Positions 18,392 to 33,137 of a DNA stretch of 64,000 nt are shown one piece after another. The notes beneath the pieces were generated by a model. That model was not told the origin of the DNA, did not search any database, and saw nothing but the letters and a program-made list of their open reading frames with translations. The position numbers and the translations under genes were made by a program. The stretch is from NCBI RefSeq assembly GCF_007833795.1, contig NZ_CP032704.1:211666-275665 (forward strand), in the 5' to 3' direction. Within the stretch, counting starts at the first letter, position 1, and every line of letters begins with the position of its first letter. Source of the stretch: Candidatus Pantoea soli (GTDB lineage: Bacteria > Pseudomonadota > Gammaproteobacteria > Enterobacterales > Enterobacteriaceae).

Positions 18392-19430
18392 CTATAATAC
18401 GCGTGCAACAGGAATGTCAGACCAGCGTGTGGTCCAGGCTGGACTGAGCATCTCCCGCTTCATGTTCCATTCGGTATTCACGCCCTGTCCTGCAAACCAC
18501 ACGTTTCCCAGCCCGGACTGATTAATGCCGTCCAGCACTTTCATGAGCTGCACACTGTTCTTTCGTGGCTGCCTGTCATCAAAGAGATTGAGCTGACTCA
18601 CTCCGTCCGGAGTAAAGTCATCGAGCATGATGCCCGCTTTCATGTACCGGCGACCTTCGAGCCAGATGCGATCGAGCGATCGCATGGCCACGTCAATAAT
18701 GTCCCGCGTATCCTGGGTGGGCAGGCTGAGCTTTTCTCCGGCGCTGTTTCCGTAAAACACCTCGTTGACCGCATGCGGCGAGGTGCGAATAAACACGCTG
18801 ACACGCCGGCAGAACTGCCGCTCGCCCCGGAGCTTTTCGGCCGCTCTTGTCGCGTACAGGCACAGCGCCTGCTGCATGGCGACCTTTGAGGTGATGCGCT
18901 CACCAAAAGAGCGGGAGCAGCAAATTTGTTGTTTGGCAGGGGGCAGTTCCTCAAGCGGAATACAGGATTCGCCGTTCAGTTCGCGTACGGTTCTCTCCAG
19001 AACCACGTTAAAGTTTTTCCGGATGAGGGCAGGGTGGGCGCGTGCCAGCTGTAGCGCATTATGGATACCCATCAGATTCAGGCGTTTGCCGATGCGACGT
19101 CCCACCCCCCAGATTTCTTCCACAGGCTGATTTTCCAGAAGAGTAGCGGTGCGCTTTGGGTTGTCTGGCGTAAGCGCGAGCACGCCCCGAAACTGTGGCC
19201 ACTCCTTGCTGGCCCACTGTGCTGACTTCGCCAGCGTTTTGGTCGGCCCCATACCAACGCCAATAACCAGCCCGGTGGTATTCATCACATGTGTTCTGAG
19301 GCGGCGGCCAAAATGTTCATAATCTTCGCAGCCGTTAATGCCCGTCAGGTCGAGGAACATTTCATCAATGCTGTACTGTTCAACACGGGGTGTCAGTTCT
19401 TCCAGGGCTGTCATCACGCGCTGGCTGAGA
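18392..19430 (-). pseudogene. umuC: umuC, 3' part, separated by insertion of the 12.9-kb element
   Basis: The Y-family DNA polymerase V subunit, from about residue 80 to the end: SQRVMTALEELTPRVEQYSIDEMFLDLTGI (palm with catalytic SIDE), VIGVGMGPTKTLAK, PVEEIWGVGRRIGKRL (HhH), little finger and the C-terminal QLNLFDD beta-clamp motif. The N-terminal 79 codons lie 12.9 kb away at 32344-32580 in the same orientation. The open frame runs past 19430 into element sequence (VYSLNVAFHITYY), so no proper start remains. The two native parts add up to about 424 codons, the size of intact UmuC: the insertion was clean. Confidence 0.92.
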
Positions 19431-19437
19431 TAGTAAG

Positions 19438-19452
19438 TTATGTGGAATGCAA
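19438..19452 (+). repeat. Left terminal inverted repeat of the umuC element
   Basis: TTATGTGGAATGCAA, 15 of 15 bases matching the inverse of 32325-32339. Probable recombinase core site. Confidence 0.85.
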
Positions 19453-19503
19453 CATTGAGTGAGTAAACTTTGAGCAGCGATATTGCTGTCAGAGGAGAAC
19501 ACG

Positions 19504-20487
19504 ATGCTGATTCCACCGGATGAACATGCTCTGTTACTGGTAGAGCGCTGGCTGAAGCTTTTATCAGATCTTGGCAGGGCTCAGGCCACACTCTCAGCCT
19601 ACCGTAATGCCTTAAACCATTATTTTTCGTTCTGCAGTCAGAACGGAATTAAACCTGATAAGGCCCGGTTTGAAGATCTGGCCGCCTACATCAGCCCTCA
19701 GTTACCCGGAATGTCGTTCCCCGTGGCCAGCGCCACGCTTCAGCTGCGCCTGTCGGCAATCCGTCTCTGGTATGACTTTCTGATGTACCAGGATCTCTGT
19801 CTGATAAATCCGCTGCCCCGCTCCGGCACGCCCGGCACGCTGAGTTCTGGCAGGGGCTTGGTCCCCCGCGTCGTGAAGCTGCCACGGATCCCTGACGATG
19901 CACAGTGGCAGTCTTTTCTTTTTCATGCGGCCTCGTCCCCGCTGCGTGACCGCCTGATGCTGGCACTAACCTACTACGGTGCGCTGCGGCGATCTGAAAT
20001 TACCTCCCTGAGTCTCGAAGACCTCGACTTTGCACACCGGCTTATCCGTATCCGGGCAGAAACCACGAAGAGCCGGCGGGAGCGTATCGTCTGTTACAGC
20101 CCGGCCGTTGCACCCGTGCTGGCGGCCCACCTTATGCAGATGAAGCGGGCAGGAATCATCAGAGGTGCCCTGTTTCGTTCTGAGTCGGATCGTAATCAGG
20201 GCGCACCGCTCTCATTCTGGACCTGGAGCAAAACGGTACGGGAATGGGCACTGATTTCAGGGCTACCGGATATCTCAACCCATACCTTCCGCCACCTGCG
20301 CCTCACACATCTGGCGCGCGCAGGCTGGAAGCTGCACGAGCTGGCTACCTATGCGGGACACCGCGACCTGGCCACTACCCAGATTTACATCCACCTTTCC
20401 GGGCGGGATCTCGCCGCCAGGATGGCGGGCGCGATAGAAACGGCAGATCTCAGAATGGCGAACCTCATTTTCAGCGCGGAGAAATAG
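19504..20487 (+). CDS. Tyrosine recombinase 1 (TnpA/XerD-like)
   Basis: 327 residues from ATG 19504, with AGAGGAG 6 bases upstream. N-terminal SAM-like core-binding domain (LSDLGRAQATLSAYRNALNHY) and a complete catalytic domain: Arg in YYGALRRSEITSL, H-x-x-R in HTFRHLRLTHLA, His in YAGHRDLATTQIYIHLS, and the nucleophile Tyr in the same segment. It is followed by the second recombinase after a one-base gap. Expected to cut and join at the 15-bp ends of the element. Confidence 0.92.
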   Translation: MLIPPDEHALLLVERWLKLLSDLGRAQATLSAYRNALNHYFSFCSQNGIKPDKARFEDLAAYISPQLPGMSFPVASATLQLRLSAIRLWYDFLMYQDLCLINPLPRSGTPGTLSSGRGLVPRVVKLPRIPDDAQWQSFLFHAASSPLRDRLMLALTYYGALRRSEITSLSLEDLDFAHRLIRIRAETTKSRRERIVCYSPAVAPVLAAHLMQMKRAGIIRGALFRSESDRNQGAPLSFWTWSKTVREWALISGLPDISTHTFRHLRLTHLARAGWKLHELATYAGHRDLATTQIYIHLSGRDLAARMAGAIETADLRMANLIFSAEK

Positions 20488-20488
20488 C

Positions 20489-22606
20489 ATGAGCACTCAA
20501 AGACCGATTGAATGCAACTGGCGTCCGTTCGACATGACTGCATACCGGCTTGAAACGTCACTGAGTTCCGCTGAACAGGTGGCGCTGGCCAGCTCTCACA
20601 GCCGGTCCGGTATGTCACGCATGGATCCCGTACCAGACCTTATCAGACCGCTGGCGGATATTGCCGCCGCAAGCGGATGCGGCAGAAAAATCACCAGACT
20701 TGTAATAACCAGATTGCTGCGTGAAATGCATGTAACCGGCATACCCTGCTGGTGCTGGTCGCAGGAACGCTGGCAGACACTCTGCCGGGAAGTCCGTGAT
20801 GGCCGGCCGTTAATAGCCGCTTTTGCCTGGCATCTTGCTGATTTGCATGACCCGCTCAGCCTGCCCGATATCCGGAAACCCGCCCTGTATGCCTCAGCTA
20901 TCTTTGGCCAGGCTTTTTATCACCAGGAGCTGCAACGACTTACCGATACGCTGACGTCGCTGGGATATGCCCCTGCCAGCCAGAAAAATCATGTCTCTGG
21001 CATACTGGCCACGCTGATGATCGTGAACAGGGATCCCCGGCTTGAGTCATTTACGCCGGAACTGCTCTGGCAGGTCCAGTCCGGCATGGAGGCAGGGACT
21101 TCCCGCTATGTCGGTCGCGTTTCACATGCGCTCGCCGCGCTGGGCATTATCAGCACCCCAATGAGGATGCGAAACTACACGCAGTGGTATGAAAAGCCGG
21201 TGGAAGGCATCGATCCGGCCTGGGTACACTGGTGCCGTCGCTGGCGGGAAACGTCGGTGCTCAGGCCCCGCTCCTGCGAAAGCCTGTACAGTTTTATTCT
21301 GCGATGCGGCCTCTGGCTGGCAGAAGCGCATCCGGAGGTAAGAGAACCGGCTGACTGGACGATGGAAACCTGCGCCAGCTTTATCGCGGCGGTAGGCCGG
21401 ATGAATGTGGATGATCTTCAGCTGGGCACTGAAAGGGGCATCCGCAAATCGGTGCGCTCCGGCGAGCCCATGATGCCGCATTCCAGGGCGAATTTTATCT
21501 ATTCATTGCGCCGTTTTATGATTGATTACGAAAACTGGGGCTGGGGACGCCTGCGTTTCAGCCCTGCCCGTCATCTCTCCACGCCCGATACGCCCCTTTT
21601 CCGCCGTGGGGTCAATCCCCGGGTGATCGACGATCCGGTCTGGCTGAAGCTCATCTGGGCCAGCCTCAATCTGCGTCAGGAAGACCTGCTCACTGAAATA
21701 CACTATCCGCTGGCCATGCTGCAGGCGATGGCCGTTATCTGGACCCATGCAGGGCTGCGGAAAAACGAGTTGCTCCGTCTGACGACAGGATGCATCACGC
21801 CGCAGGCGGATGAAATAGTGAAGGAGGACGGCAGCATTATCCCGGCCGGAACGCTGTGCTACCTGCATATCCCTGCCGGAAAAACCTCAAAAGCCTTTGT
21901 TAAGCCGGTAGCAGCCGTGGTGAAAAAATACGTCGATCTCTGGCTGGATGAGCGCCCGGCAGAACAGGCAATGTTGGCCGACGATCGGACGGGTGAGAAA
22001 GTCCGGCTTCTGTTTCAGTACCGCGGTAAGCCTGCCGGCAGCGCTATCCTCAACCGCACGGTAATACCGATGCTCTGCGCGAGGGCGGGCGTGCCCTCAG
22101 AAGACAGCGGCGGAATGATAACCAGCCACCGGGGACGGGCCTCAGCGGTGACGGCACTGGCCAGCGTCCCACAGGGCATGTCGCTGTATGAACTGATGCA
22201 GTGGACCGGGCATTCAACGCCCCAGTCCACCATGCATTATATTCGTATCCGTCCGACTCAGCTGGCCGCCTCGTTCGCCAAAGCAGACAGGGTCGCTCAC
22301 ATGATAAGCGTGCTGATTGATCACGACCCTGACGCCGCCAGCCTGACAGGCCCCGCGACGTACTATGATTTGGGTGACTCATACTGCACAAATCCCTTCT
22401 GGAGCAGCTGTCAGCACCGGATGGCCTGCATCGGCTGCGATTTCAACCTGCTTAAAGACAGCGCGCGCGGGCTGATACTGGAGAGTAAAGCATCCATCCG
22501 GCGTTACCTCGAAGAGGTTCCGCTCACTCCCGATGAGAGAGCCATACTGGAGCAGGATGCTGAAAAGGTTGGGCATGCTCTCACAAGACCGGGGCCACAA
22601 TCCTGA
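20489..22606 (+). CDS. Tyrosine recombinase 2, large (TnpB-like)
   Basis: 705 residues, much longer than a normal integrase. The N-terminal 350 residues have no motif I recognise. The C-terminal half has the catalytic set: THAGLRKNELLRLTTG (Arg), SHRGRASAVTALA (H-x-x-R), WTGHSTPQSTMHYIRI (His and Tyr). A Cys-rich tail follows (CTNPFWSSCQHRMACIGCDFN), which may bind zinc, as in Tn554 TnpB-like proteins. Two recombinases without a TnpC partner differ from Tn554, where three genes are needed, and from RIT elements, which carry three recombinases. Confidence 0.88.
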   Translation: MSTQRPIECNWRPFDMTAYRLETSLSSAEQVALASSHSRSGMSRMDPVPDLIRPLADIAAASGCGRKITRLVITRLLREMHVTGIPCWCWSQERWQTLCREVRDGRPLIAAFAWHLADLHDPLSLPDIRKPALYASAIFGQAFYHQELQRLTDTLTSLGYAPASQKNHVSGILATLMIVNRDPRLESFTPELLWQVQSGMEAGTSRYVGRVSHALAALGIISTPMRMRNYTQWYEKPVEGIDPAWVHWCRRWRETSVLRPRSCESLYSFILRCGLWLAEAHPEVREPADWTMETCASFIAAVGRMNVDDLQLGTERGIRKSVRSGEPMMPHSRANFIYSLRRFMIDYENWGWGRLRFSPARHLSTPDTPLFRRGVNPRVIDDPVWLKLIWASLNLRQEDLLTEIHYPLAMLQAMAVIWTHAGLRKNELLRLTTGCITPQADEIVKEDGSIIPAGTLCYLHIPAGKTSKAFVKPVAAVVKKYVDLWLDERPAEQAMLADDRTGEKVRLLFQYRGKPAGSAILNRTVIPMLCARAGVPSEDSGGMITSHRGRASAVTALASVPQGMSLYELMQWTGHSTPQSTMHYIRIRPTQLAASFAKADRVAHMISVLIDHDPDAASLTGPATYYDLGDSYCTNPFWSSCQHRMACIGCDFNLLKDSARGLILESKASIRRYLEEVPLTPDERAILEQDAEKVGHALTRPGPQS

Positions 22607-22730
22607 CGGATCAGATGCCTACAATGTCCGGCCTGAGGGTATCGGTGCAGAATCAGTACAGACGACCGAACGTCGTATTGATATAAATTTGATTATAGTG
22701 GGCGTGATGCCGTAACTGATGGAGCAGCAG

Positions 22731-23132
22731 ATGAGAAAACAGAAGCGATGTATGGGGTATGTGGCTGTCGTTGTCGATGACTACGATCGTGCAATTGAGT
22801 ACTACACCGATAAGCTGGGCTTTACCCTGATTGAGGACACGCCGCAGCCGGGTAAGCGCTGGGTCGTCGTGACGCCGGCCCCTGACAGCGACTGTGCTAT
22901 TCTTCTTGCCCGCGCGTCGAATGACCGGCAGGAAGGCTTTATCGGCAACCAGTGCGGCGGGCGGGTTTTTCTGTTTCTGCAGACCGACGACTTCTGGCGC
23001 GATTACAATGCTATGAAGGCAAAAGGCGTCCACTTCTGTCAGGAGCCGCGGGAGGAAGAATACGGAATGGTTGTCGTGTTTGAGGACCTCTATGGTAATC
23101 GCTGGGACCTTTACCAGAACAGGCAGACCTGA
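22731..23132 (+). CDS. VOC-family (glyoxalase/dioxygenase superfamily) protein
   Basis: About 133 residues; ATG 22731 has GGAG 6 bases upstream. The single VOC domain with beta-alpha-beta-beta-beta units is visible: MGYVAVVVDDYDRAIEYYTDKLGFTLIEDTP, RWVVVTPAP, and the end FEDLYGNRWDLYQ with the metal-ligand Glu and the GNRWDL motif. Substrate unknown; proteins of this kind often detoxify small molecules. It reads toward crcB, with a perfect hairpin between the two. Confidence 0.8.
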   Translation: MRKQKRCMGYVAVVVDDYDRAIEYYTDKLGFTLIEDTPQPGKRWVVVTPAPDSDCAILLARASNDRQEGFIGNQCGGRVFLFLQTDDFWRDYNAMKAKGVHFCQEPREEEYGMVVVFEDLYGNRWDLYQNRQT

Positions 23133-23197
23133 AACTCTGTCTCGACAGTGTCCCGGATTTAGGGGAAGCATTACAGGCGTAAACCCTGTCGGGTCAG

Positions 23198-23227
23198 ACC
23201 TCAGTGCAGCGGTCGCTGCACTGAGGT
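23198..23227. terminator. Perfect 14-bp hairpin between VOC and crcB genes
   Basis: ACCTCAGTGCAGCG and CGCTGCACTGAGGT around two bases. It lies between two convergent gene ends, so a bidirectional terminator is likely, although neither side has a clear U-tract. Confidence 0.5.
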
Positions 23228-23258
23228 ATCCCCTGGATTAAAGGCCGTACGGTCCGGG

Positions 23259-23639
23259 TTAACCACACAGCGTCATGATATAAAATCCGGCCGCCGTCAT
23301 GACCAGCGAACCCAGCACGTGTATCAGCACCGAGGCGGCTGCCCAGGCATAGCTGCCGGACTGCAGCAGGGCAAAAACCTCAGCTGAAAATGTGGAGAAG
23401 GTCGTCATTCCGCCACACAGCCCGGTGGTAATGAGCAGCCGCCAGGCCGGATCGAGGCCGGGATGGCGCAGAAAATACGCCAGCGCCGCCCCGATGATAA
23501 ATCCACCCAGCAGGTTGACCAGCAGCGTCCCCGGCGGCAGGTCCGGAAAAAGCGCGTTCAGGCGTGCGCCCAGCTGCCAGCGGATTACACACCCTAAAGC
23601 ACCGCCGGTGATGACGGCAAAAAGCTGATTCACGTTCAC
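23259..23639 (-). CDS. crcB: Fluoride exporter CrcB/FluC
   Basis: 126 residues, four membrane segments. Forms a dual-topology dimeric fluoride channel that lets F- leave the cell. Signature segments: ITGGALGCVIRWQLGARLN, GTLLVNLLGGFIIG (pore Asn), and TGLCGGMTTFSTFSAE (the TTFSTFS phenylalanine-box motif). Last gene of the riboswitch-controlled operon, 5 bases after gpmA. This assignment explains why enolase and pyrophosphatase travel with it. Confidence 0.95.
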   Translation of the reverse strand: MNVNQLFAVITGGALGCVIRWQLGARLNALFPDLPPGTLLVNLLGGFIIGAALAYFLRHPGLDPAWRLLITTGLCGGMTTFSTFSAEVFALLQSGSYAWAAASVLIHVLGSLVMTAAGFYIMTLCG

Positions 23640-23644
23640 TCCTG

Positions 23645-24346
23645 TTATTTTTTTATATTCAGAGCATCACGGGACACGACCTGTGCGGCCGCATCCATCT
23701 GGTATACCGCCGGCACGCCGGTCGGGATATGCAGCTGTGCCACGCTGTCGTGGGGCATGCCGTCCAGAAAGGCGGTCAGGGCGCGCAGCGTGTTGCCGTG
23801 CGCCACGATCAGAACGGTACTTCCGCAGCGCAGCTGTGGCACCACAACGTGGTGCCAGTACGGCATGACGCGACGCAGGGTCATTTCCAGGCTTTCCGTT
23901 GCAGGCAGGTCGGCCAGCGCAACGCGGCGGTAGCGCGGGTCCCGACGCAGCTGAGCCGGCGCCTCCGTGTCCGCGGGAGGAATACCGCTGAAGCTTTTGC
24001 GCCAGAGCCGGACGGTCTCTGCGCCCATCAGCCGGGCAGCCGCGTCCTTGTTCAGCCCCTGCAGCGCACCGTAGTGCCGCTCGTTCAGCCGCCAGTTTTT
24101 TTCCACGGGCGTCCAGCTGCGGTCAATACGGTCCAGCACCCGCCAGACCGTATGAACACAGCGCGTCATCACCGAGGTGAAGACCCGGTCGGGCATCAGG
24201 CCCGCTGCCCGCAGCGCGTCACCGGCCCGGTCGGCCTCCTGCCGCCCCCGGTCCGTCAGCGGCACGTCCGTCCATCCGGTAAATCGGTTTTCCCGGTTCC
24301 ACTGGCTTTCGCCGTGGCGCAGGAGGATCAGCGTTGCTGGTGCCAC
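23645..24346 (-). CDS. gpmA: 2,3-BPG-dependent phosphoglycerate mutase
   Basis: 233 residues from GTG 24346, with GGGAGC about 7-8 bases upstream. This gives VAPATLILLRHGESQWN, the usual GpmA N-terminus; the frame opens upstream to 24439, inside eno. Catalytic LRHGE, ENRFTGWTDVPLT, NERHYGALQGLNK and VAHGNTLRAL are all present. Interconverts 3- and 2-phosphoglycerate in glycolysis, the step before enolase. A plasmid copy next to eno would help carry glycolytic flux when fluoride blocks enolase and 2-phosphoglycerate builds up. Confidence 0.9.
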   Translation of the reverse strand: MAPATLILLRHGESQWNRENRFTGWTDVPLTDRGRQEADRAGDALRAAGLMPDRVFTSVMTRCVHTVWRVLDRIDRSWTPVEKNWRLNERHYGALQGLNKDAAARLMGAETVRLWRKSFSGIPPADTEAPAQLRRDPRYRRVALADLPATESLEMTLRRVMPYWHHVVVPQLRCGSTVLIVAHGNTLRALTAFLDGMPHDSVAQLHIPTGVPAVYQMDAAAQVVSRDALNIKK

Positions 24347-24389
24347 AGGCAGTGCTCCCGTGCCGGGCGCGGACCGTCCGGCGGATGCT

Positions 24390-25679
24390 TTACGTGCGGC
24401 GCACAAACGCATGAAGCCCCGCGTAGTGCGCATCGTCACCCAGCGCCTGCTCGATGCGCATCAGCTGGTTGTACTTTTCCACGCGTTCGCCGCGGCACGG
24501 CGCGCCGGTTTTCAGGTGTCCCGCGCGCAGTGCCACCGTCAGGTCGGCAAGGAACGTGTCCGTGGTTTCCCCGCTGCGGTGGGACATGAACGCGCCCCAG
24601 CCGTGCCGCTGGCAGAGCGCCACGGCGTCCAGCGTTTCGCTGAGCGAGCCTATCTGATTGAGCTTAATCAGCGCGGCGCTGGCGAGGTTTTCGTCTATGC
24701 CGCGCTGAATGTACTTCACGTTGGTGACAAAAAGGTCGTCGCCAACCAGCTCGGCCCGGCCCGCGAGCTGCTGGTGCAGATGCTTCCAGCCCGCCCAGTC
24801 GTCCTCGGCCAGGCCGTCTTCCAGCAGGATGACCGGAAACTGGTCCATCAGCTCGCCGTAGTACGCCGTCATTTCCGCCGCGCTCAGCGCGCTGCCCTCG
24901 GTGCGCAGATGATACTGACCGTCAGCGTAAAACTCACTTGAGGCGGGGTCCATGCAGATGCTGATGTCCTCTCCGGGCCGGTATCCCGCCTTCTCAATCG
25001 CCTGTACGATAAACGCCAGCGGGTCGCGGTTCGACGACACGGCGGGCGCAAAGCCGCCTTCGTCTCCCACTGCCGCCGAGAGGTTTTTGTCCAGCAGGAT
25101 CTGGCGCAGCGCCTGATAGACCTCGCTGCCCTGACGTACGGCCTCGCGCAGCGTGGGCGCGCCGTGCGGGGCTATCATAAACTCCTGGAAGTCCGCGCCC
25201 TGACCGCGGGCGTGCACGCCGCCGTTGATGATGTTCATGCACGGCACGGGCAGCAGGTTCGCCTGCAGGCCCCCCAGGTAGCGCCACAGCGGCTCGTGCG
25301 AGGCCTGAGCCGCCAGCCGGGCCACCGCCAGCGACACGCCCAGAATGGCATTGGCACCCAGGCGACTCTTGTTCTCCGTGCCGTCCAGCGCCAGCATGAT
25401 GTTGTCCAGCTGACGCTGCTCGCGCACGTCGCTGCCGCGCACGGCCTGGCAGATTTCCGTATTAACCGCCCTGACGGCATCCAGAACGCCTTTGCCGCCA
25501 AAACGGTGTGCGTCACCGTCGCGGCGCTCTGCGGCCTCGCGCGACCCGGTGCTGGCCCCGGAAGGCACCGAGGCGCGCGCCATCATCCCGTCCGCGGTCC
25601 GGGCTTCGACTTCAACCGTGGGGTTGCCGCGCGAGTCAAGAATTTCCCGGGCGGTCACGTTATCCAGTGTAAAACGCAT
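24390..25679 (-). CDS. eno: Enolase, plasmid-borne
   Basis: 429 residues, near the usual 430. Residues of the family are present: SGASTG loop, MNIINGGVHA, AVGDEGGFAP, Mg ligands in ICMDPASSEF, LLEDGLAEDDW and VGDDLFVTN, catalytic Lys in ALIKLNQIGSL, and SHRSGET. The C-terminal TGAPCRGERVEKYNQLMRIEQAL differs from the TGSMSRSDR of chromosomal E. coli enolase. Enolase is the classic fluoride-inhibited glycolytic enzyme (Mg-F-phosphate complex), so an additional or less sensitive copy fits resistance. Reduced fluoride sensitivity is not shown. Confidence 0.95.
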   Translation of the reverse strand: MRFTLDNVTAREILDSRGNPTVEVEARTADGMMARASVPSGASTGSREAAERRDGDAHRFGGKGVLDAVRAVNTEICQAVRGSDVREQRQLDNIMLALDGTENKSRLGANAILGVSLAVARLAAQASHEPLWRYLGGLQANLLPVPCMNIINGGVHARGQGADFQEFMIAPHGAPTLREAVRQGSEVYQALRQILLDKNLSAAVGDEGGFAPAVSSNRDPLAFIVQAIEKAGYRPGEDISICMDPASSEFYADGQYHLRTEGSALSAAEMTAYYGELMDQFPVILLEDGLAEDDWAGWKHLHQQLAGRAELVGDDLFVTNVKYIQRGIDENLASAALIKLNQIGSLSETLDAVALCQRHGWGAFMSHRSGETTDTFLADLTVALRAGHLKTGAPCRGERVEKYNQLMRIEQALGDDAHYAGLHAFVRRT

Positions 25680-25694
25680 GGTATTTCTCCCGGT

Positions 25695-26120
25695 TCAGTC
25701 AGTCAGGTGAGTGATAAGCACATCCACCGTAAGGTGGTTGATGTAGTCCGCCGAGTGGGAGGTGAGCATGCCCATAAAGCGGTTGCGGTGCCCGGCAAGC
25801 ACGAGGTCCACGCCCAGCTCCGCGATGCACTTCTCCACGTCCTCAAAACGGCGCATGGTGACCAGCTCCCGCGTATCGACCTCCTCAGGCACGGAGGCCG
25901 CCAGCTCGCTCAGAAACGCCTTGGCTTTAACCACCTCGTCCGACACGACGTCGTCCATCAGGCTGTCGGACACATAGTTCATCTCCCTGTAATCGTCGCT
26001 GATGTGGGCCAGGGTGATTTTCATGCCGAGCGGCTGCGCCAGCGCAACCGCGCGCTTCAGCAGGAGGGTGCCGTCGTCTTTATCGTTCACAAGAATCAGT
26101 GCGTGGGTGTAGCAGGTCAT
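25695..26120 (-). CDS. Universal stress protein (UspA superfamily)
   Basis: 141 residues. Single Usp domain: HALILVNDKDDGTLLLKRAVALAQ at the start, ITLAHISDDYREM, then DLVLAGHRNRFMGMLTSHSADYINHLTVDVLITH, the G-x2-R-x9-G-type nucleotide loop with some substitutions. Its ATG overlaps the ppaC stop by four bases and it ends 15 bases before eno, inside the fluoride operon. Role in fluoride tolerance unknown. Confidence 0.9.
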   Translation of the reverse strand: MTCYTHALILVNDKDDGTLLLKRAVALAQPLGMKITLAHISDDYREMNYVSDSLMDDVVSDEVVKAKAFLSELAASVPEEVDTRELVTMRRFEDVEKCIAELGVDLVLAGHRNRFMGMLTSHSADYINHLTVDVLITHLTD

Positions 26121-27025
26121 AATGAACTCCCGTTCTGGTTAAGGCGGGACTCAAGCCACGGCAGAAGCTGCTTTTTGCGGCTGAGCATGCCCGGTACGGA
26201 GCAGGAGGCCGCGTTAACGCTCTCCCGCCCGGCGAAGTAAAGCGTTGAAAACCCGGCGCGAATGTCGGTCAGCATCAGCACCGCCAGGCCAGCTCCCGAC
26301 TGGTCTGCCAGATACGCCAGGGCTGCGAGCAGGTCGTCCATCACGGGGGCAACCTGTGTCGGTGAGCTGACTTCAATCTGGGCAATACGCACGTCGGTGC
26401 CGGCAATGACGAAGGCCTTGAGGTCCCTGTCCAGCAGCTGCTGTGCGCTGAGGCCGGTGACGTCTGTTTTGGCGGTGAGAAGGTCACGGGCGAAGGCCCT
26501 GCGGTTTACGCCGGACAGCACGCCCAGTTCGGTGGCCGAACGGATATCGTCTTCGGTGGTGGTCGGCGAGCGAAGATTCACGGTGTCACTGAGGAGTGCG
26601 CCCAGCAGAAGCACGGCGAGCGTCGGGGGCAGCGTGCGGCGCGCTTCCGCGTCCATCAGCAGCCAGAGCAGCGTGGCGCTGCTGCCAACCGGACGAATAT
26701 GTACTTCCGGCGGCAGTTGCGTTATCAGCCCACCCAGCCGGTGGTGGTCAGTGATGCCCACGACGTTGCTCCGGAGCAGGTCATCAGGCCCCTGCGCCGG
26801 TTCGGTGAAATCAACCAGCCAGACCCGTTCATCCTGCAGCGGAAATGCGAGCAGCGGCGGCAGCGTAAGGCCGGCGGCGTTAAATATAAAACGGGTTTCG
26901 CGGTTAGCCTCGCCGAGACGCCATGCACGGGCGTCCATGCCGCGCCCGGTCAGCCAGTGCGCGGTGACGACGGCCGTGCAGATGGCGTCGCTGTCAGGAT
27001 TGATGTGGCCAAAAACGTGTATCAA
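26117..27025 (-). CDS. ppaC: Manganese-dependent inorganic pyrophosphatase, family II
   Basis: 302 residues. DHH phosphoesterase fold: VFGHINPDSDAICTA (motif 1), VDFTEPAQ (motif 2), GITDHHRLGG (DHH) and the C-terminal DHHA2 domain with the substrate-binding SRKKQLLPWL. Starts with TTG at 27025, preceded by GGGGAGA. Hydrolyses pyrophosphate. Enterobacteria normally use the unrelated family I enzyme, which fluoride inhibits. A family II enzyme as first gene after a fluoride riboswitch is a clear bypass of a target. Confidence 0.93.
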   Translation of the reverse strand: MIHVFGHINPDSDAICTAVVTAHWLTGRGMDARAWRLGEANRETRFIFNAAGLTLPPLLAFPLQDERVWLVDFTEPAQGPDDLLRSNVVGITDHHRLGGLITQLPPEVHIRPVGSSATLLWLLMDAEARRTLPPTLAVLLLGALLSDTVNLRSPTTTEDDIRSATELGVLSGVNRRAFARDLLTAKTDVTGLSAQQLLDRDLKAFVIAGTDVRIAQIEVSSPTQVAPVMDDLLAALAYLADQSGAGLAVLMLTDIRAGFSTLYFAGRESVNAASCSVPGMLSRKKQLLPWLESRLNQNGSSL

Positions 27026-27109
27026 GGGTCTCTCCCCATAAAGGGAAGTACGCAGGCCGGGAAGAAAGTATGGACGGCCTGACGCACCTCCTGAAAATCA
27101 AGAGTCACA

Positions 27110-27168
27110 TCAGGCGTCATCAGCTCCGGAACGGAGCGGTTGGGAAAGGTGGAACGCCATCACCCTGT
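27110..27168 (-). promoter_or_regulatory. Fluoride riboswitch (crcB RNA motif)
   Basis: On the minus strand, GGTGATGGCGTTCCACC, then AACCGCT, a GGAACGGAGC-type hairpin arm, and GAGCTGATGACGCCT follow the crcB-motif consensus (GGNGAUGG-GUUC-CC, AAC-GCU, GCUGAUGACGCCU). The GGCGT/ACGCC pairing forms the long-range helix. It lies about 85 bases before ppaC. After it, CAGGCCG and CGGCCTG (27048-27087 area) can form a second hairpin, but there is no U-tract, so control may act on translation or on Rho. Binding of F- turns such RNAs on. Confidence 0.9.
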
Positions 27169-27174
27169 ACTCTG

Positions 27175-27203
27175 AGTATAGAACCAGACGGAAAACCTGT
27201 CAG
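27175..27203 (-). promoter_or_regulatory. Sigma70 promoter of the fluoride operon
   Basis: CTGACA (-35, 27198-27203), a 17-base spacer, and TATACT (-10, 27175-27180), each one mismatch from consensus. Transcription would begin just before the riboswitch. Confidence 0.75.
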
Positions 27204-27222
27204 TATTATTCTGCTGGCGCCC

Positions 27223-27822
27223 TCAGCCCGCCAGCGCAGCGCGTGCCTCGCGGAGCACCCGGCGGATGTTTTCCGGCACCGCCGGACTCGTGCAGAGCGA
27301 CAGCGGGCTGGGATGCGGCATCACCAGCACCGTGACGCCGGGGCGCAGGTGACTGACCGTCCCGCGGGACTGCGCCGCTACGGCACCGGCCAGCACCACC
27401 ACGCGCAGCGCGGGCAGATGCGCCAGCACGTCCTCAAGCCAGGCGCAGCCGGTACGGATATCCACCGCTGAGGGCCGTTTCTGCGGCCCGTCGCTGACCC
27501 AGGGCACCGTATTCCACAGCACGCTGTCCTGACGCGCAATGCCCGCTTCCGCCAGAAACCGCCCCAGATTCTGCTGGGCCGGCCCCGGGTTATCACGCGA
27601 CACGAACCGGGGTGACGGGCTGCTGCGCGCCGGTGACTGCAGCAGCACGAGCAGCCCGGCCCCGGCCCCACCGTCGGCCGGATCAAACCACGGCACCTCC
27701 ACACCGGCCTGATTCTGCCCGCTGACCCAGCGATTCAGCGCGGCCACGTGCGGCGCGGTGACCGCCGCGAGGCGTTCCTCGCGTAAAAACGGGTCCAGCA
27801 GCGACGTGCAGGTTTCACTCAC
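27223..27822 (-). CDS. Uracil-DNA glycosylase superfamily protein
   Basis: 199 residues. UDG-fold motifs: LLVLLQSPA near residue 60, SVLWNTVPW (motif with Asn), VVVLAGAVA, and the C-terminal MPHPSPLSLC (HPSP motif in which the His contacts uracil). The family removes uracil from DNA, but divergent members may act otherwise. Its start overlaps the TDT transporter stop by four bases, so both are one transcript; it ends just before the fluoride promoter. Confidence 0.8.
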   Translation of the reverse strand: MSETCTSLLDPFLREERLAAVTAPHVAALNRWVSGQNQAGVEVPWFDPADGGAGAGLLVLLQSPARSSPSPRFVSRDNPGPAQQNLGRFLAEAGIARQDSVLWNTVPWVSDGPQKRPSAVDIRTGCAWLEDVLAHLPALRVVVLAGAVAAQSRGTVSHLRPGVTVLVMPHPSPLSLCTSPAVPENIRRVLREARAALAG

Positions 27823-28979
27823 GGCTTCCGGTCCAGGCCTGCCAGGCAGGGGGAAACAAAGAGTTTACCGCTCCATGCACCGCGCACCGTCTTCACTGCG
27901 ACCAGCAGCCACATGGCGGCCAACATGACAACAAGAAGCGCCCCGAAGCCTTTAAAGAACGCCAGTTCAACGAGTGTAGACAGCTTCAGCGTGGCCACGG
28001 TGTACACGCCCAGCGGGAAGGTAAATCCCCACCATCCCAGGTTGAACGGAATGCCTTCACGGAAGTATCGCACGGTTATCAGCGTGGCCAGCAGCATCCA
28101 CCACAGGCCGCAGCCCCAGAAGAGAATGCCGGCAACGAACCCCACGCCCTGCGCGATGTGACCGATTTCCGGCATACCCGCCGCGGCAAACACCCCGGGC
28201 GCATCGCCACCGATGACCAGCATGCCGAGCGAGCCGGTGCCAATCGGCCCCAGCGCCAGCCAGCTTGAGGCCGCCATACTCTCGTGTGGCAGCTTGTGCA
28301 GCGCCATACGCAGCAGAAGGATGGCAAGGATGCTCAGCGCCACCGGCACAGAGTACGCCCACAACACGTAGCTGGTAATAATGATGCCGAGCTGCGCGTG
28401 GGTGTCGGCAATGTGCGGCGCCAGCAGGCCGCCGCTGACCGCCGCGACCTCGGCAGCCACAACCGGCAGTAACCAGACGGCCGTCATCTGGTCAATGCTG
28501 TGCTGCTGCCGGGTAAACATCATGTAGGGAATACACACGCCGCACAGCAGCGACATCGCCACGTCCAGCCACCACAGGGCGTGTGCCACCGGAATAACGT
28601 CTGCGCCCCAGCGGGGAAGACCGAACGCCAGCAGCCCGTTGATGATGGTCGCCATGCCCATCGGGATGGTGCCAAAGAACATGGACACCGTTGAATGGCC
28701 AAAGATGCGCTTTGCCTCACCGAAGTACATCACCCAGCGCGCCAGATACATCACGGCAAAGACGCTGAACAGCAGGATGTTAAACATCCAGAGCCCCTCG
28801 GCGACGAGGCGTAATCCCGGAACCGGCCAGGGGAACTGCGCCAGAGACAGCGACAGGATACCGGTCCCCATGGTCGCGGCGAACCAGTTAGGCGTGAACT
28901 GACGTATAGCCTCTTTCGGGCTGCTCAGCGCGCTCAGCGGGCGCGCTCCGTTATGCAGGGTAAATATTTTATCGTTCAT
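27819..28979 (-). CDS. TDT-family transporter (TehA/SLAC1 fold)
   Basis: 386 residues, ten membrane segments. Starts with a typical PNWFAATMGTGILSLSLAQFP, followed by GTIPMGMATIINGLLAFG and NLGWWGFTFPLGVYTVATLKLS, segments shared with tellurite-resistance/dicarboxylate transporters and SLAC1 anion channels. The substrate is not shown; an anion channel beside a fluoride operon raises the possibility of halide or carboxylate flux, but the gene has its own upstream region without a riboswitch. Confidence 0.85.
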   Translation of the reverse strand: MNDKIFTLHNGARPLSALSSPKEAIRQFTPNWFAATMGTGILSLSLAQFPWPVPGLRLVAEGLWMFNILLFSVFAVMYLARWVMYFGEAKRIFGHSTVSMFFGTIPMGMATIINGLLAFGLPRWGADVIPVAHALWWLDVAMSLLCGVCIPYMMFTRQQHSIDQMTAVWLLPVVAAEVAAVSGGLLAPHIADTHAQLGIIITSYVLWAYSVPVALSILAILLLRMALHKLPHESMAASSWLALGPIGTGSLGMLVIGGDAPGVFAAAGMPEIGHIAQGVGFVAGILFWGCGLWWMLLATLITVRYFREGIPFNLGWWGFTFPLGVYTVATLKLSTLVELAFFKGFGALLVVMLAAMWLLVAVKTVRGAWSGKLFVSPCLAGLDRKP

Positions 28980-29131
28980 GCCGGGATCTCCTGTGTAAAC
29001 AGAGACAGTATAGGCATGCAGACGTAAATCTTTAAAACAGGTTATTCAGCTAAAATAAATCTGTAAAAGTGGTTTACCATCCCCCACTCTGCAAAGGACT
29101 ATTACAGCACCGGAGTGAGGGAGGGACTGAA

Positions 29132-30130
29132 TCAGGCCTTCGGCGGGCTTTTAATCGTGGCCGTGACGCGGTTCTGTTTCAGGTCAACCACCGAAATACT
29201 GAGGTCTTTATTCAGCACCCACGCGCGGGCACCGTCTTTACTGAAAACGATGGCCTGACGGGGCGCATCCAGTCCGGTAACGGTGGCGACCACCTTACCG
29301 GCCGCGGTATCAATAACGGAGAGGCTGTTGTCACCCAGGTTGCCGCTGTAAACATAGCGGTTATCCGGTGTCAGCGCGGCACCGTAAGGGTCCTGCCCCA
29401 CGGGAATGGTTGACGTAATGGCGCGCTTCTGCGTGTCAACCACGGCGATGGTGTTGCTCCCGCTGTTAGCCGCGTAAAGCGTGCGGCCGTCGGCGCTGAC
29501 AGAAATGGCGCGCAGCTTGCTGAAGCCGGTTATCTCGCCGCGAATCTCGCCCGTTACGGCGTCAACGAGGGTGATTTTATCGCCCTTAAAGTTGGTGACG
29601 TAGACGGTTTTGCCGTCCGGGCTGATTTTGATGCCCTGACGGGGCTGAGCAAAACCCGTCACGACCGAAACGGGCCGGTTGTGGGTCAGGTCATACACCG
29701 AAAGTGTGCTGGCGGCTTCGTTATTCACATACAGGCGCTGACCGTCACGGCTGATAGCTGTGCCGAATGCCCCGGGACCCAGCGGCAGCGAGGTCTCCAC
29801 GTCAAGCGTCCCGGTACTGATTTTTCTGACCACGCCCAGACTGCTGTCAGAAAGAAATATGGCCTTACCGTCCGGAGTAAAAAGCGCATTACGGGGGGTG
29901 ACGTATCCCTTCAGCACCTTCCTGACCTTACCGGTGGCAAGGTCGTAGACCACCACGTCAGGGCGCTCACTGTAGGACGCCACCGCCGTTTTTTCATCGG
30001 GACTGACAGCAAGAGAATTGTTGTGGATATCGCCATCAAACGTCCAGCGCGCCTCTGCGGCACCGGCGAGGGTGCTGATGAGAAGAAGCGCCACCGCGGT
30101 CAGTCCCGGGATCCTGTATTTTTTTATCAT
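29132..30130 (-). CDS. Exported YVTN-family beta-propeller protein (YncE-like)
   Basis: About 332 residues from ATG 30130 (an adjacent ATG lies at 30133; AGGA upstream). Signal peptide MIKKYRIPGLTAVALLLISTLAGAAEA. Seven blades of the YVTN type with repeated SPDGKTVYVTN-like units: VSPDEKTAVASY, TPDGKAIFLSD, SRDGQRLYVNN, SPDGKTVYVTN, SADGRTLYAAN, TPDNRYVYSGN and SKDGARAWVLN. E. coli YncE is a periplasmic DNA-binding propeller of unclear function. Divergent from the chemoreceptor gene. Confidence 0.88.
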   Translation of the reverse strand: MIKKYRIPGLTAVALLLISTLAGAAEARWTFDGDIHNNSLAVSPDEKTAVASYSERPDVVVYDLATGKVRKVLKGYVTPRNALFTPDGKAIFLSDSSLGVVRKISTGTLDVETSLPLGPGAFGTAISRDGQRLYVNNEAASTLSVYDLTHNRPVSVVTGFAQPRQGIKISPDGKTVYVTNFKGDKITLVDAVTGEIRGEITGFSKLRAISVSADGRTLYAANSGSNTIAVVDTQKRAITSTIPVGQDPYGAALTPDNRYVYSGNLGDNSLSVIDTAAGKVVATVTGLDAPRQAIVFSKDGARAWVLNKDLSISVVDLKQNRVTATIKSPPKA

Positions 30131-30419
30131 CATTTTTCCTGCATAGGGGTGGTAAGGGATAAGACTCATTGCCCGCTTAAGGGCTTCAGAAGAAGCGTGG
30201 CAGATAAACCCCGCTCAGGGAAATCGATTTTCCGGCTATGCCTTACCAGCCACCATAACCGTAAGAACGGCATAGTTTTTAATGAACATAAAAAGCCTGA
30301 TGATTCAGAAGTATGGTGCATAACTATCTGCTCCCTCCCCCCGACCCGCTTCATCAGACCTGTCCTGACGCCCACTTCTGCCGATACTTCCCCTGTCACT
30401 TAACACTCAGGGCTACCCA

Positions 30420-31964
30420 ATGAAAATATCAACCCGTCTGGCCGCAGGTTTTGGCCTGCTTATTCTGCTGTTCATCTTCTGCACCGGACTTTCGTTAAAG
30501 GCGCTTTCCGGCGCCCGCGAAGGAATGGATGACGTGATTAATGTCAAAATGAAAAAATATCAGATCGTTCTGGACATGCGGGGCGCATTACGCGACATGG
30601 CCATTGCGGCCCGAAATCTGGCCCTGCTGTCCGATCCGAAAGCCATGCAGCCCGAGTGGGAGCGCCTTGAGGCACAGAAAACCTTATATATACGCAGCCG
30701 GGAAGCACTGGAGTCCATGCTGGCAGATGACGCCTCATCCGCAGGACGCGCTGCCTTCACCATAGTCCGTGAAAATGAAGCCGCCGTTCTGTCAGGTCTG
30801 GAACAGGCCGGTCAGTTCGGACTGCAGAACCGTCCACAGGAAGCCACAGCGTATCTGATGAATACGGTCAGGCCGGTGCAACGTACTCTTCTGGATAATC
30901 TGAATGAAATGACGAATATCCAGATGCACAGCAGCCAGGACGCCGTTCGTGATAACAGTCGTAACGTGAGCCGGGCCTCTCTTACGCTGATCATTCTGGC
31001 CGTAATCTCGGTTATCGTTTCCATTTTTACGGGTGTCATTATCGTCCGCGTGCTGATGCGGCAGCTGGGTGGTGAACCTCAGCAGGCACAGGTACTGGCG
31101 GCCGCCATTGCAGCAGGTGACCTGACATCACCGGTGCCACTTCGCCGCAATGATAAAACAAGTCTGCTGGCATCGCTCGCCCGCATGCAGAGTCAGCTGC
31201 GCGGTTTGGTATCAAAGATCAAAGAAACCGCATCCGGTGTGGCGCTGGCGGCAGACGAGATCGCTCAGGGAAATACAGAGCTTTCATCACGCACTGAGCA
31301 ACAGGCGGCTGCATTGCAGGAAACGGCCGCCAGCATGGAACAACTCACGGCAACAGTGAAAAGTAATACGGCCGGCGCACAGCAGACGGCAGCTTCAGCG
31401 CGAGAAACGGCGGTGCTCGCGCGATCAGGAGAGACAGATGTCCGCCGCATGTCAGAAACCATGAATGACATATCCCTGAGTGCTAAAAAGATCCGCGACA
31501 TTACCGGTGTCATCGAGGGCATTGCCTTTCAGACCAACATTCTTGCACTGAATGCAGCTGTTGAAGCCGCCCGGGCAGGCGAGGATGGCAGAGGATTTGC
31601 TGTTGTTGCCGGTGAGGTTCGTACACTTGCACAGCGAAGTGCAACTGCAGCAAAAGAAATAAAGTCGCTTATTGAGCAGGCTGTAGAACAGGTTGAAAGT
31701 GGTGTGAGCGTGGCATCAGGTACCGGACAGAGCATACTCAATATTGTGGGTATGGTCGGGGAACTGGCGGAATTAATGGACATTATTTCGCTGGCATCCT
31801 CTGAGCAGATGCAGGGTATCTCGCAGGTCAGCATTGCGGTCAGTCAGATGGACGGTGTCACGCAGAATAACGCTGCTCTCGTCGAGGAGTCGTCATCGGC
31901 CTCCCGATCGCTTTCTGAACAGGCGCACTCCCTTCGTGGCATGGTCGAGACGTTTCGGGTCTGA
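30420..31964 (+). CDS. Methyl-accepting chemotaxis protein 1
   Basis: 514 residues. Membrane segment 1 at about 8-28, a four-helix-bundle sensor region of about 160 residues (4HB_MCP type), segment 2 at about 188-212, HAMP, and the signalling hairpin with tip [37 protein letters not shown]. Methylation helices contain [18 protein letters not shown]. It lacks the C-terminal NWETF pentapeptide that recruits CheR/CheB. A close full-length relative of the same size lies at 49448-50992. Located at the right end of the umuC element. Confidence 0.93.
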   Translation: MKISTRLAAGFGLLILLFIFCTGLSLKALSGAREGMDDVINVKMKKYQIVLDMRGALRDMAIAARNLALLSDPKAMQPEWERLEAQKTLYIRSREALESMLADDASSAGRAAFTIVRENEAAVLSGLEQAGQFGLQNRPQEATAYLMNTVRPVQRTLLDNLNEMTNIQMHSSQDAVRDNSRNVSRASLTLIILAVISVIVSIFTGVIIVRVLMRQLGGEPQQAQVLAAAIAAGDLTSPVPLRRNDKTSLLASLARMQSQLRGLVSKIKETASGVALAADEIAQGNTELSSRTEQQAAALQETAASMEQLTATVKSNTAGAQQTAASARETAVLARSGETDVRRMSETMNDISLSAKKIRDITGVIEGIAFQTNILALNAAVEAARAGEDGRGFAVVAGEVRTLAQRSATAAKEIKSLIEQAVEQVESGVSVASGTGQSILNIVGMVGELAELMDIISLASSEQMQGISQVSIAVSQMDGVTQNNAALVEESSSASRSLSEQAHSLRGMVETFRV

Positions 31965-32324
31965 CGTAAGAATCAACTGAACTGACTCTCCACTTACAAG
32001 CCCTTCAACTACAAAATGAAGGGCTTGCTCCGGTCACGAGGACTATAGTGCAATGATGAAATTCCAGGTTCTCTTCAGAGCGCCTGACGGGCGCGCTCAA
32101 AGTGGTCTTCCCACTTCCAGATGTATGCTGGACGGAAAACACAGTCTGTCATTCATTTAATCCATGAGCACATTTCCATACCTTTCGACACTCCCCATCA
32201 GAAAAAACGCGAAACTCCAACGATAAGCGCCCCGCCATTAAACAGCCTTTCGTGCCACTTATCCGATTGATTGTCTCGTCCCGATATCAACTTTCGAGAA
32301 TAATTTGCTAATTATTTGTACAAA
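31965..32324. other. Gene-free right end of the umuC element
   Basis: Holds the hairpin at 31997-32027; after that nothing coding up to the right terminal repeat. Confidence 0.5.
31997..32027 (+). terminator. Hairpin after chemoreceptor gene
   Basis: CAAGCCCTTCA pairs with TGAAGGGCTTG, 11 of 11, with a 9-base loop. No U-tract follows, so termination strength is uncertain. Confidence 0.5.
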
Positions 32325-32339
32325 TTGCATTCCACATAA
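32325..32339 (-). repeat. Right terminal inverted repeat of the umuC element
   Basis: TTGCATTCCACATAA, exact inverse of 19438-19452, five bases from the broken umuC codon. Confidence 0.85.
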
Positions 32340-32343
32340 TATG

Positions 32344-32580
32344 GTAAAGCCCGTAGTTCGAACTGAAGATAAATACCTTTTCGGGATAGAGCTGGTTCTT
32401 TATCTGAAACCATGGCGTGCCCATTTTTATGCCAAGTTTTTTTGCGCTGGCGCTGCGCGCAATGACGCAGCCGTCGTTGTTGCTCAGTACCACAACCGGC
32501 TTACCGCGCAGATCCGGGCGGAACAGCGCCTCGCAGCTGGCATAAAATGCGTTCACGTCGGCCAGTCCGAACATGGGCAT
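32344..32580 (-). pseudogene. umuC: umuC, 5' part (79 codons)
   Basis: ATG 32580 follows GGAGGTGATT and lies two bases after the umuD stop. Reads MPMFGLADVNAFYASCEALF, RPDLRGKPVVVLSNNDGCVIARS, LGIKMG and FSSNYGLY: the N-terminal fingers and palm of a Y-family polymerase with the first catalytic Asp in LADVNAFY. After GGGCTTTAC it enters the element, reading a short foreign tail and stopping at 32308. The product would be inactive. Confidence 0.93.
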
Positions 32581-32582
32581 AA

Positions 32583-33029
32583 TCACCTCCGCGCGCGCGT
32601 GCTGTTGAAAAACCACGTCACCACGCCGAGCAGCTGCAGCTCCTCCGGATAAATCACGGGGTAGGCGGGGTTCATCGGGAGCAGGGCGGGGCGGGGATGC
32701 AGCTGCAGGCGCTTGACCGTAAATTCTCCGTTAACTTCGGCTATAACAATATCGCCGTGGGAAGGCTTCTCGGCGCGATCGACAACCATGACGTCGCCAT
32801 CGCACAACCCGAGATCGCGCATGCTGTTGCCGCTGGCGCGGACAAAGAAAGTAGAGGCGCGCCGGCGGATGCAGAGTTCATTCAGGTCCAGCTCTTTCTC
32901 AACGTAATCTGCCGCCGGAGAGGGAAACCCTGCGGCGCAGGGCTCTGCATAGAGGGGTACCCTGACGCGGGGAGTAAAAAGCGGGGGCCAGAGCAGTGTC
33001 AGGCCCCCGGCAAAACTGCCCGGATTCAT
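32583..33029 (-). CDS. umuD: UmuD-type SOS mutagenesis protein (S24 self-cleaving)
   Basis: 148 residues. LexA-like self-protease; the RecA-stimulated cut is expected at Ala-Gly in PCAAGFPSPAADYVE, as in MucA/ImpA. The catalytic Ser is in ASGNSMRDLG and the Lys in GEFTVKRLQL. Cleaved UmuD' joins UmuC in polymerase V and otherwise helps delay replication. It has an intact frame while its partner umuC is split, so a lone UmuD could still act with another UmuC in the host. Start overlaps the leader peptide stop. Confidence 0.92.
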   Translation of the reverse strand: MNPGSFAGGLTLLWPPLFTPRVRVPLYAEPCAAGFPSPAADYVEKELDLNELCIRRRASTFFVRASGNSMRDLGLCDGDVMVVDRAEKPSHGDIVIAEVNGEFTVKRLQLHPRPALLPMNPAYPVIYPEELQLLGVVTWFFNSTRARR

Positions 33030-33117: not shown

Positions 33118-33137
33118 TACTGGTTATACGTACAGTA
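33118..33137. promoter_or_regulatory. LexA-type SOS box upstream of umuD
   Basis: On the minus strand TACTGT-ACGTATAA-CCAGTA: CTGT and CCAG eight bases apart, one mismatch from CTGT-N8-ACAG, with the flanking TA on both sides. Placed about 20 bases before the leader start. Confidence 0.7.

Follow-up and report, generated by a model that had tools for sequence, protein, structure and literature searches.

We analyzed a 64,000-nucleotide stretch of Candidatus Pantoea soli (the window), which lies within the 275,665-bp contig NZ_CP032704.1, and found its umuC gene interrupted by a 12,908-bp element at 19432–32339. The element is very probably a site-specific transposon, related to Tn554 and lacking TnpC, whose two recombinases are predicted to release it in circular form and to insert it at a hexamer in umuC codons 77–79; its cargo includes a predicted fluoride-resistance operon. 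The features of the element's ends, recombinases, and insertion site are as follows.

18392–19431, minus strand: 3′ part of umuC, 1040 nt to the stop (alignment and junction reading)
19432–19437, plus strand: left-end hexamer AGTAAG, carried by the element
19438–19452, plus strand: left-end terminal inverted repeat TTATGTGGAATGCAA
19504–20487, plus strand: TnpA-like tyrosine recombinase, 327 aa (PF00589, PF02899)
20489–22606, plus strand: TnpB-like long tyrosine recombinase, 705 aa (PF00589)
32325–32339, plus strand: right-end terminal inverted repeat TTGCATTCCACATAA
32340–32345, minus strand: target hexamer ACCATA (umuC sense), kept at the right end (junction reading)
32340–32574, minus strand: 5′ part of umuC, 235 nt, ending within codon 79 (alignment to intact UmuC)
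32583–33029, minus strand: umuD (tblastn, 86% identity to UmuD of locus L012)
33118–33137, minus strand: LexA-like box TACTGTACGTATAACCAGTA upstream of umuD (pattern match; putative function)

Borders and Junctions of the Element

An earlier reading of the sequence alone had described a 12.9-kb element at 19438–32339, with exact 15-bp terminal repeats within a few bases of both breaks of umuC and umuC parts summing to about 424 codons with nothing lost. The repeats were found at 19438–19452 and 32325–32339 and the span holds, while the left border was moved 6 bp outward to 19432 to include the hexamer AGTAAG, which the element carries with it. The element starts with this hexamer followed by TTATGTGGAATGCAA and ends with TTGCATTCCACATAA, the exact inverse of TTATGTGGAATGCAA. 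The same repeat search returned a second perfect 15-nt inverted pair internal to the element (19973–19987 and 24061–24075), so the terminal repeat alone is not beyond chance; we nevertheless take it as real and reject a chance repeat because it is placed at both umuC breaks and is conserved among relatives. The umuC parts of 235 nt (32574–32340) and 1040 nt (19431–18392) sum, as that reading had it, to 1275 nt, or 424 aa and a stop with no base lost, which is also the size of the five intact umuC homologues that we opened. The search it had proposed for intact umuC genes lacking the element found such genes, continuous through the insertion site, and the host genome itself has a full-length, stop-free umuC match on a 3.76-Mb contig.

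A second umuC in the host contig (L002, G000:C3:137771-138045) is broken at the same codon and carries a 47-bp left-end remnant with no tnpA beside it. The right end of this second copy (L071) was not found by pattern within 19.9 kb.

The target has the form CTNT-AYCAYA-GYCT, with a hexamer that varies in Pseudomonas. With a slash marking the element border, forward insertions read CTNT/AGTAAG-TTA at the 5′ junction (ATTAAG in many Pseudomonas) and CACATAA/AYCAYA-G at the 3′ junction. In the window, where the element is reversed, the 5′ junction is CTTT-ACCATA/TTATGTGG and the 3′ junction AACTTACT/ATCTCAGCC; the element border thus falls on one edge of the hexamer in forward insertions and on the other edge in reverse ones. 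Among the relatives found with TnpA (below), 38 of 39 left ends have the element's own hexamer, A[G/T]TAAG, and L032 is the exception. The right end retains the target hexamer in all 26 cases examined, comprising 24 of 24 forward ends beside umuC and 2 of 2 reverse ones (the window and L003), and none of these 24 forward ends has the element's hexamer. The reading frame of umuC is preserved in 23 of the 24 forward insertions, and likewise in the window. The element is found in either orientation, and the window has the rarer, reverse one.

A Common Landing Site in umuC

The earlier reading had also suggested looking for the ends and recombinases in other umuC genes. A TnpA protein search of a bacterial and archaeal genome collection gave 43 loci, 39 of them with a readable left end (unreadable: L020, L053, L054, and L055), and 33 of the 39 left ends lay at a single hexamer in umuC codons 77–79. 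Of these, 29 forward ends adjoin umuC codons up to 76/77 by tblastn, one is reverse (L035), and three more were recognized by translating the flank, which ends in SSNY-x-L (L027, L034, and L040). Three of the 39 (L029, L036, and L038) were uninformative, their flanks being no longer than 7 nt. The hosts range from Pantoea and Erwinia through Kluyvera to Pseudomonas, and TnpA identity falls from 92% to 54%.

A second scan used the left-end pattern TAAGTTANRTGGAATGC alone, without umuC sequence, on 392 genomes of the family; it overlaps the TnpA set, several records being common to both. The pattern occurred at 21 places in 14 genomes, two of the places in the window's own genome, and 17 of the 21 lie exactly at the umuC site (16 forward and the window). 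The remaining four consist of one place cut by a contig end, two in plasmid pEM02 outside umuC, and one with neither umuC nor tnpA. The reversed control pattern had no match in the same 392 genomes. In an order-wide sample, 3 of 394 genomes contained the pattern, at four places all already in the TnpA set, and the control pattern matched once. Complete Escherichia coli genomes gave no near match to the 3.2-kb left-end and tnpAB stretch of L030; four Escherichia plasmid records matched a query made of the joint and ends.

In L046 (Pseudomonas antarctica, position 4483), the element sits in a TonB-receptor-like frame (read by eye), directly after CAACTACGCGCTGT, a sequence similar to the target in umuC. 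Because of this similarity at a site outside umuC, specificity appears to be for the DNA sequence rather than for the gene. L025, at a different site, has the left hexamer AGTAAG and the right-side hexamer ATTGGA.

Evidence for Movement

To compare the element with its surroundings, we used 42 forward left-end loci (41 in umuC and L046), giving 861 pairs in which about 1 kb of the element was set against the 225-nt flank; the rows were prefiltered for a flank ending in NY-x-L, so that no base frequencies at those positions were taken from this set, and L046 enters none of the listed pairs. In 31 of the 861 pairs, the first approximately 1 kb of the element was at least 95% alike while the umuC flank was at most 80% alike (53–80%), and many Pseudomonas pairs combined 100% identical elements with flanks of 53–78%. 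L018 and L022 have identical umuC flanks (100%) and elements that are only 80% alike.

From two arms around a 6-bp spacer, a circle or tandem of the element is predicted to contain the joint CCACATAA-AGTAAG-TTA. Used as a query, this joint matched NZ_CP034472.1 and NZ_CP034477.1 over 55 of 65 nt at 98%, joint included; among 121 matching records, no others covered 80% of the query. In NZ_CP034472.1, where the context was read (L103:14952-14990), a right end, AGTAAG, and a left end are directly joined, after which a tnpA-like sequence begins; 8.3 kb beyond the joint, another right end adjoins umuC. This arrangement, as far as the sequence can tell, fits a history in which one element inserted at the right end of a second. 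The claim of a self-bounded, site-specific island of mobile type with umuC as its landing site has thus gained support from sequence comparison.

Recombinases and Probable Kinship to Tn554

The recombinase lengths of 327 and 705 aa given by the sequence-only reading were confirmed. In TnpA, the motifs R162, H260-x-x-R263, H286, and Y295 align with XerD; for TnpB, we read R424, H547-x-x-R550, H575, and Y584 together with a C-terminal Cys cluster, and its sequence had no PDB match at E 0.01 and no NCBIfam match at E 0.001. The two genes are adjacent and in the same direction, as in the Tn554 family. Against the proteins of a Tn554-family comparator, which we take to be Tn558, TnpA showed 23% identity (E 1e-20) and TnpB 20% (E 1e-4). 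The comparator has two recombinases and a small DUF6262 (TnpC-like) protein behind tnpB; in the window element no TnpC was found there, the sole open reading frame of at least 80 aa on the tnpB strand between tnpB and crcB being a VOC gene. The contrast drawn earlier with the three recombinases of Tn554 or RIT elements consequently holds for RIT and fails for Tn554, as the comparator has two recombinases plus the TnpC-like protein. Members of the Tn554 family insert without target duplication and in a fixed orientation, and the target of Tn554 is radC. The window element matches the family in having no target duplication and departs from it in orientation, its relatives being inserted both ways. 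A reading as an integron was rejected, the best NCBIfam integron integrase match scoring 58 bits vs. a cut-off of 265.

The Fluoride Operon and Other Cargo

The remaining features of the element are the following.

22719–23132, plus strand: VOC/glyoxalase-fold protein (Pfam PF00903)
23259–23639, minus strand: crcB fluoride exporter (NF010792 and TIGR00494 above cut-off)
23645–24439, minus strand: phosphoglycerate mutase, longest open reading frame (Pfam PF00300); the true start probably lies further inward, as in relatives
24390–25679, minus strand: enolase (TIGR01060, 587 bits, cut-off 300)
25695–26120, minus strand: universal stress protein (Pfam PF00582)
26117–27025, minus strand: ppaC-like manganese pyrophosphatase, DHH/DHHA2 (Pfam; NCBIfam PRK05427 at 272.6 bits, just below the 283 cut-off)
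27104–27173, minus strand: fluoride riboswitch (Rfam RF01734, 50.8 bits vs. a 34-bit cut-off)
27175–27203, minus strand: sigma-70-like promoter directly ahead of the riboswitch (consensus match only)
27223–27822, minus strand: uracil-DNA glycosylase family protein (Pfam PF03167)
27819–28979, minus strand: TDT/SLAC1 family transporter (Pfam PF03595)
29132–30169, minus strand: YncE-like beta-propeller protein (annotated beta-propeller in relatives)
30420–31964, plus strand: methyl-accepting chemotaxis protein (NCBIfam matches below cut-off; best plasmid matches about 70% identical and annotated as such)

The complete operon described by the sequence-only reading is present, in the order ppaC-usp-eno-gpm-crcB and led by the riboswitch, and its function is predicted to be fluoride resistance. 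The chemotaxis gene, which occupies most of the stretch up to the right end, is extra cargo and is not listed in the three related fluoride islands that we opened (L003, L004, and L005).

Relatives carry other cargo, and some have a spare umuDC at the right end. NZ_CP143400.1 (L072:17709-28230) contains arsenic genes and, just inside its right end, an intact umuDC; beyond it come the right end and then the 3′ portion of the interrupted umuC. NZ_CP143406.1 (L073) has a Tn3-family transposase and a gor/osmC/dsbA/thioredoxin cluster, which resembles the published thiosulfinate-tolerance cluster; a umuC copy lies at its right end in two overlapping tblastn pieces, with no annotated umuD. The plasmid pEM02, with three recombinase pairs, carries a cadmium-type P-ATPase and arsenic genes, copper genes beside a further recombinase pair, and an annotated umuDC with right-end sequence within 40 nt; the flank beyond is not umuC. 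In L011, a right end and another umuC 3′ part come after an intact umuC, and in L006, two right ends are each followed by a umuC 3′ part, a pattern that would fit a history of nesting and then cargo loss. Of seven listed records (H50, H51, and H53–H57), two were opened (H50 and H53). The spare umuDC of some relatives is possibly a fresh landing site.

Weighing the Evidence

Several points weigh against the reading of the element as a mobile, umuC-specific relative of Tn554. Mobility is a reading from sequence comparison; the joint pattern occurred in 0 of the 392 family genomes; and the two Pantoea plasmids with the joint, equal in size and source, are apparently sister strains and thus probably represent one event. 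Many relatives are of common ancestry, and the counts are not counts of independent events. Three of the 39 left ends (L025, L032, and L046) and two of the three in pEM02 (NZ_LN907829.1; L097 and L098) lie outside umuC, L032 (Xenorhabdus, 9911) has the hexamer AGTATG in place of AGTAAG, and L039 is out of frame and breaks the frame rule. The right-end pattern was exact (TTCCACATAA or TTACACATAA), and deviant right ends would be missed; moreover, rows in which the right end is followed by CTTACT or CTTAAT, that is, by left ends read outward, were dropped, four rows of this type being seen (the window, L017, L052, and L091). The link of TnpB to Tn554 is weak at the values given above. Finally, the site given in a 2015 paper is residue 88, and that of one insertion, in ICEPanBD442, follows residue 37 (PMC4458695; this and the other papers are cited from parts of their texts), which means that umuC has more than one landing site or that the numbering differs. 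The residue-37 insertion suggests another landing site.

Several loci show further patterns. The AGTATG of L032 is preceded by a flank resembling a degenerate right end. Beside the element in L024, L044, L045, and L051, the umuC alignment does not begin until residue 33, and residues 1–34 of L024 are found at a distance of 4.2 kb; another umuC break, around residues 33–37, recurs next to the codon-77 insertion, comparable to residue 37 in ICEPanBD442.

An island that no longer moves by itself and spreads with its plasmid and through homologous recombination in the flanking umuDC would agree with the many copies of common backbone and ancestry and with the remnant left end without tnpA in the window's own contig. 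We consider it unlikely, given the near-identical elements found in umuC genes that are only 53–80% alike over 225 nt and the base-exact borders, as homologous exchange would bring the umuC flank along. The reversed orientation in the window could also stem from an integrated copy that flipped by way of its inverted repeats, with no separate insertion, and perfect 15-bp repeats could recombine. After such an inversion, however, one would expect AGTAAG or a flipped copy of the target hexamer next to the umuC 5′ part, where the window has ACCATA and L003 ATCACA, both in native orientation, with AGTAAG on the 3′ side; since both junctions contradict it, we rejected in-place inversion as highly improbable.

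Membership in the three-recombinase elements known from rulB and umuC (ILE, RIT, and GInt) was weighed because the target is of the same type, rulB being a hotspot for ILEs (PMC4542609). There are only two recombinase genes here and no target duplication, whereas ILEs have three recombinases, tetR, and a 3-bp direct repeat (PMC4542609), RIT elements have by definition three adjacent recombinases (PMC3414803), and GInts three integrases and ginD (PMC5385486); all three assignments were rejected, and the chance that the element belongs with them is very remote. As for the cargo, the main proposal of the 2015 and 2018 papers is a role in energy metabolism or general stress, enolase, the mutase, and the pyrophosphatase being enzymes of glycolysis or phosphate turnover (PMC4458695, PMC5971314); the latter also brings up fluoride in connection with crcB. 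The operon begins with a fluoride riboswitch and ends with crcB, and the same gene set, tested by knock-out in Enterobacter cloacae FRM, conferred fluoride resistance (PMC5533749), which makes a purpose other than fluoride resistance quite improbable.

Proposed Mechanism

A site of two arms around a short spacer is the usual form for tyrosine recombinases. In the excised circle, the ends of the transposon would be joined as TTGCATTCCACATAA-AGTAAG-TTATGTGGAATGCAA, two 15-bp arms around a 6-bp spacer, and TnpA and TnpB would exchange strands across this spacer and the umuC hexamer AYCAYA. The observed products have the element's own A[G/T]TAAG at the left and the target hexamer kept at the right, with umuC neither shortened nor duplicated. 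Insertion occurs in either orientation, and the missing TnpC may be the cause; in Tn554, TnpC determines or influences orientation (PMC5385486, PMC3414803).

Regulation by the SOS response is conceivable. The window has a LexA-like box before umuD, and so do 31 of 35 loci, a figure that comes from a loose pattern and does not include the chance rate, which counts against it. In forward insertions, tnpA is read in the direction of umuD and the umuC 5′ part and lies downstream of both, and tnpA and tnpB would stand behind the umuD promoter and the LexA-like box, where DNA damage could switch them on; the reversed element of the window would not use the umuD promoter. SOS-driven expression or excision was already proposed in 2015 (PMC4458695), and a similar earlier idea for rulAB is cited in PMC4542609. 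For the cargo, homologues tested by others suggest that fluoride would bind the riboswitch and that expression of ppaC-usp-eno-gpm-crcB would provide fluoride export together with extra copies of fluoride-inhibited enzymes.

A wider proposal, which we put forward tentatively and with slightly less than even confidence, is that of a TnpC-less two-recombinase family for which one umuC hexamer is the landing pad across Enterobacterales and Pseudomonas, in either orientation and with a 6-bp spacer of fixed polarity. Some members would carry at their right end a spare umuDC that restores the polymerase and offers a fresh pad, letting fluoride, arsenic, cadmium, and thiol-stress islands nest and swap cargo, possibly triggered by damage through the captured umuDC promoter.

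With ends, spacer, and target defined to the base, the scattered umuC islands become one testable system, in which empty sites, filled sites, and the predicted circle are all open to a search by PCR or a short pattern. The system offers a mechanism by which gene sets for fluoride, arsenic, cadmium, and thiol stress may move between plasmids and chromosomes in bacteria, plant-associated ones among them. The polarity of the hexamer, which is fixed, and the two orientations without TnpC also bear on how paired tyrosine recombinases function, the exact role of each Tn554 recombinase being not established (PMC3414803).

Comparison with Known Systems

The sequence-only reading had held that the island may be undescribed; this did not stand. 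A umuDC island of about 11 kb with xerC/xerD, gpmA, eno, ppaC, uspA, and mae1 in umuC was reported in 2015 by De Maayer from ICEPan elements, Pantoea vagans C9-1, pEI70, and pEb102 (PMC4458695), and in 2018 a 10.7-kb region R4′ of pPV989-94, likewise in umuC, was described with crcB, ung, and HET-E-1 too (PMC5971314). The window element shares with both the insertion in umuC, the two recombinases, and the gpmA-eno-ppaC-uspA-mae1 cargo (here gpm-eno-ppaC-usp-transporter). It differs in being reversed, in its 12.9-kb length, and in the extra chemotaxis gene; the 2015 paper reports a chemotaxis gene in the differing umuC insertion of ICEPanBD442. In the umuDC island, xerC/xerD lie at the umuC 5′ fragment (PMC4458695), whereas the window's recombinases adjoin the 3′ fragment. 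As to the site, the account of 2015 states residue 88 and that of 2018 only umuC, and the parts of the two texts consulted contain no ends, hexamer rule, or family-wide target.

The operon resembles that on genomic island GI3 of E. cloacae FRM, which has ppaC-uspA-eno-gpmA-crcB under a fluoride riboswitch and differs in having a sixth gene and two flanking transposase genes (PMC5533749). ILEs in rulB of pWW0 are alike in their umuC-homologue target, conserved recombinase side, and variable cargo side (PMC4542609).

Tn554 has the same arrangement of a short TnpA and then a long TnpB, both tyrosine recombinases, and a single integration site (PMC3414803); the window element differs in having no TnpC behind tnpB, umuC as its target, and both orientations. 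Closer in gene content are the Tn554-related transposons of Actinobacteria, with one long (611–828 aa) and one normal recombinase, some without TnpC; these are reported mainly from Actinobacteria, and the word umuC is absent from the text consulted (PMC3414803). Cargo islands in umuC, a tested fluoride operon, umuC-type hotspots, and TnpC-less Actinobacteria relatives of Tn554 are thus already in print. In the open-licence literature, we did not find the exact ends, the 6-bp polarity rule, the two orientations, or one umuC site shared across Enterobacterales and Pseudomonas, and the new part is the landing rule: the ends, the polarity of the hexamer, and the shared site in umuC.

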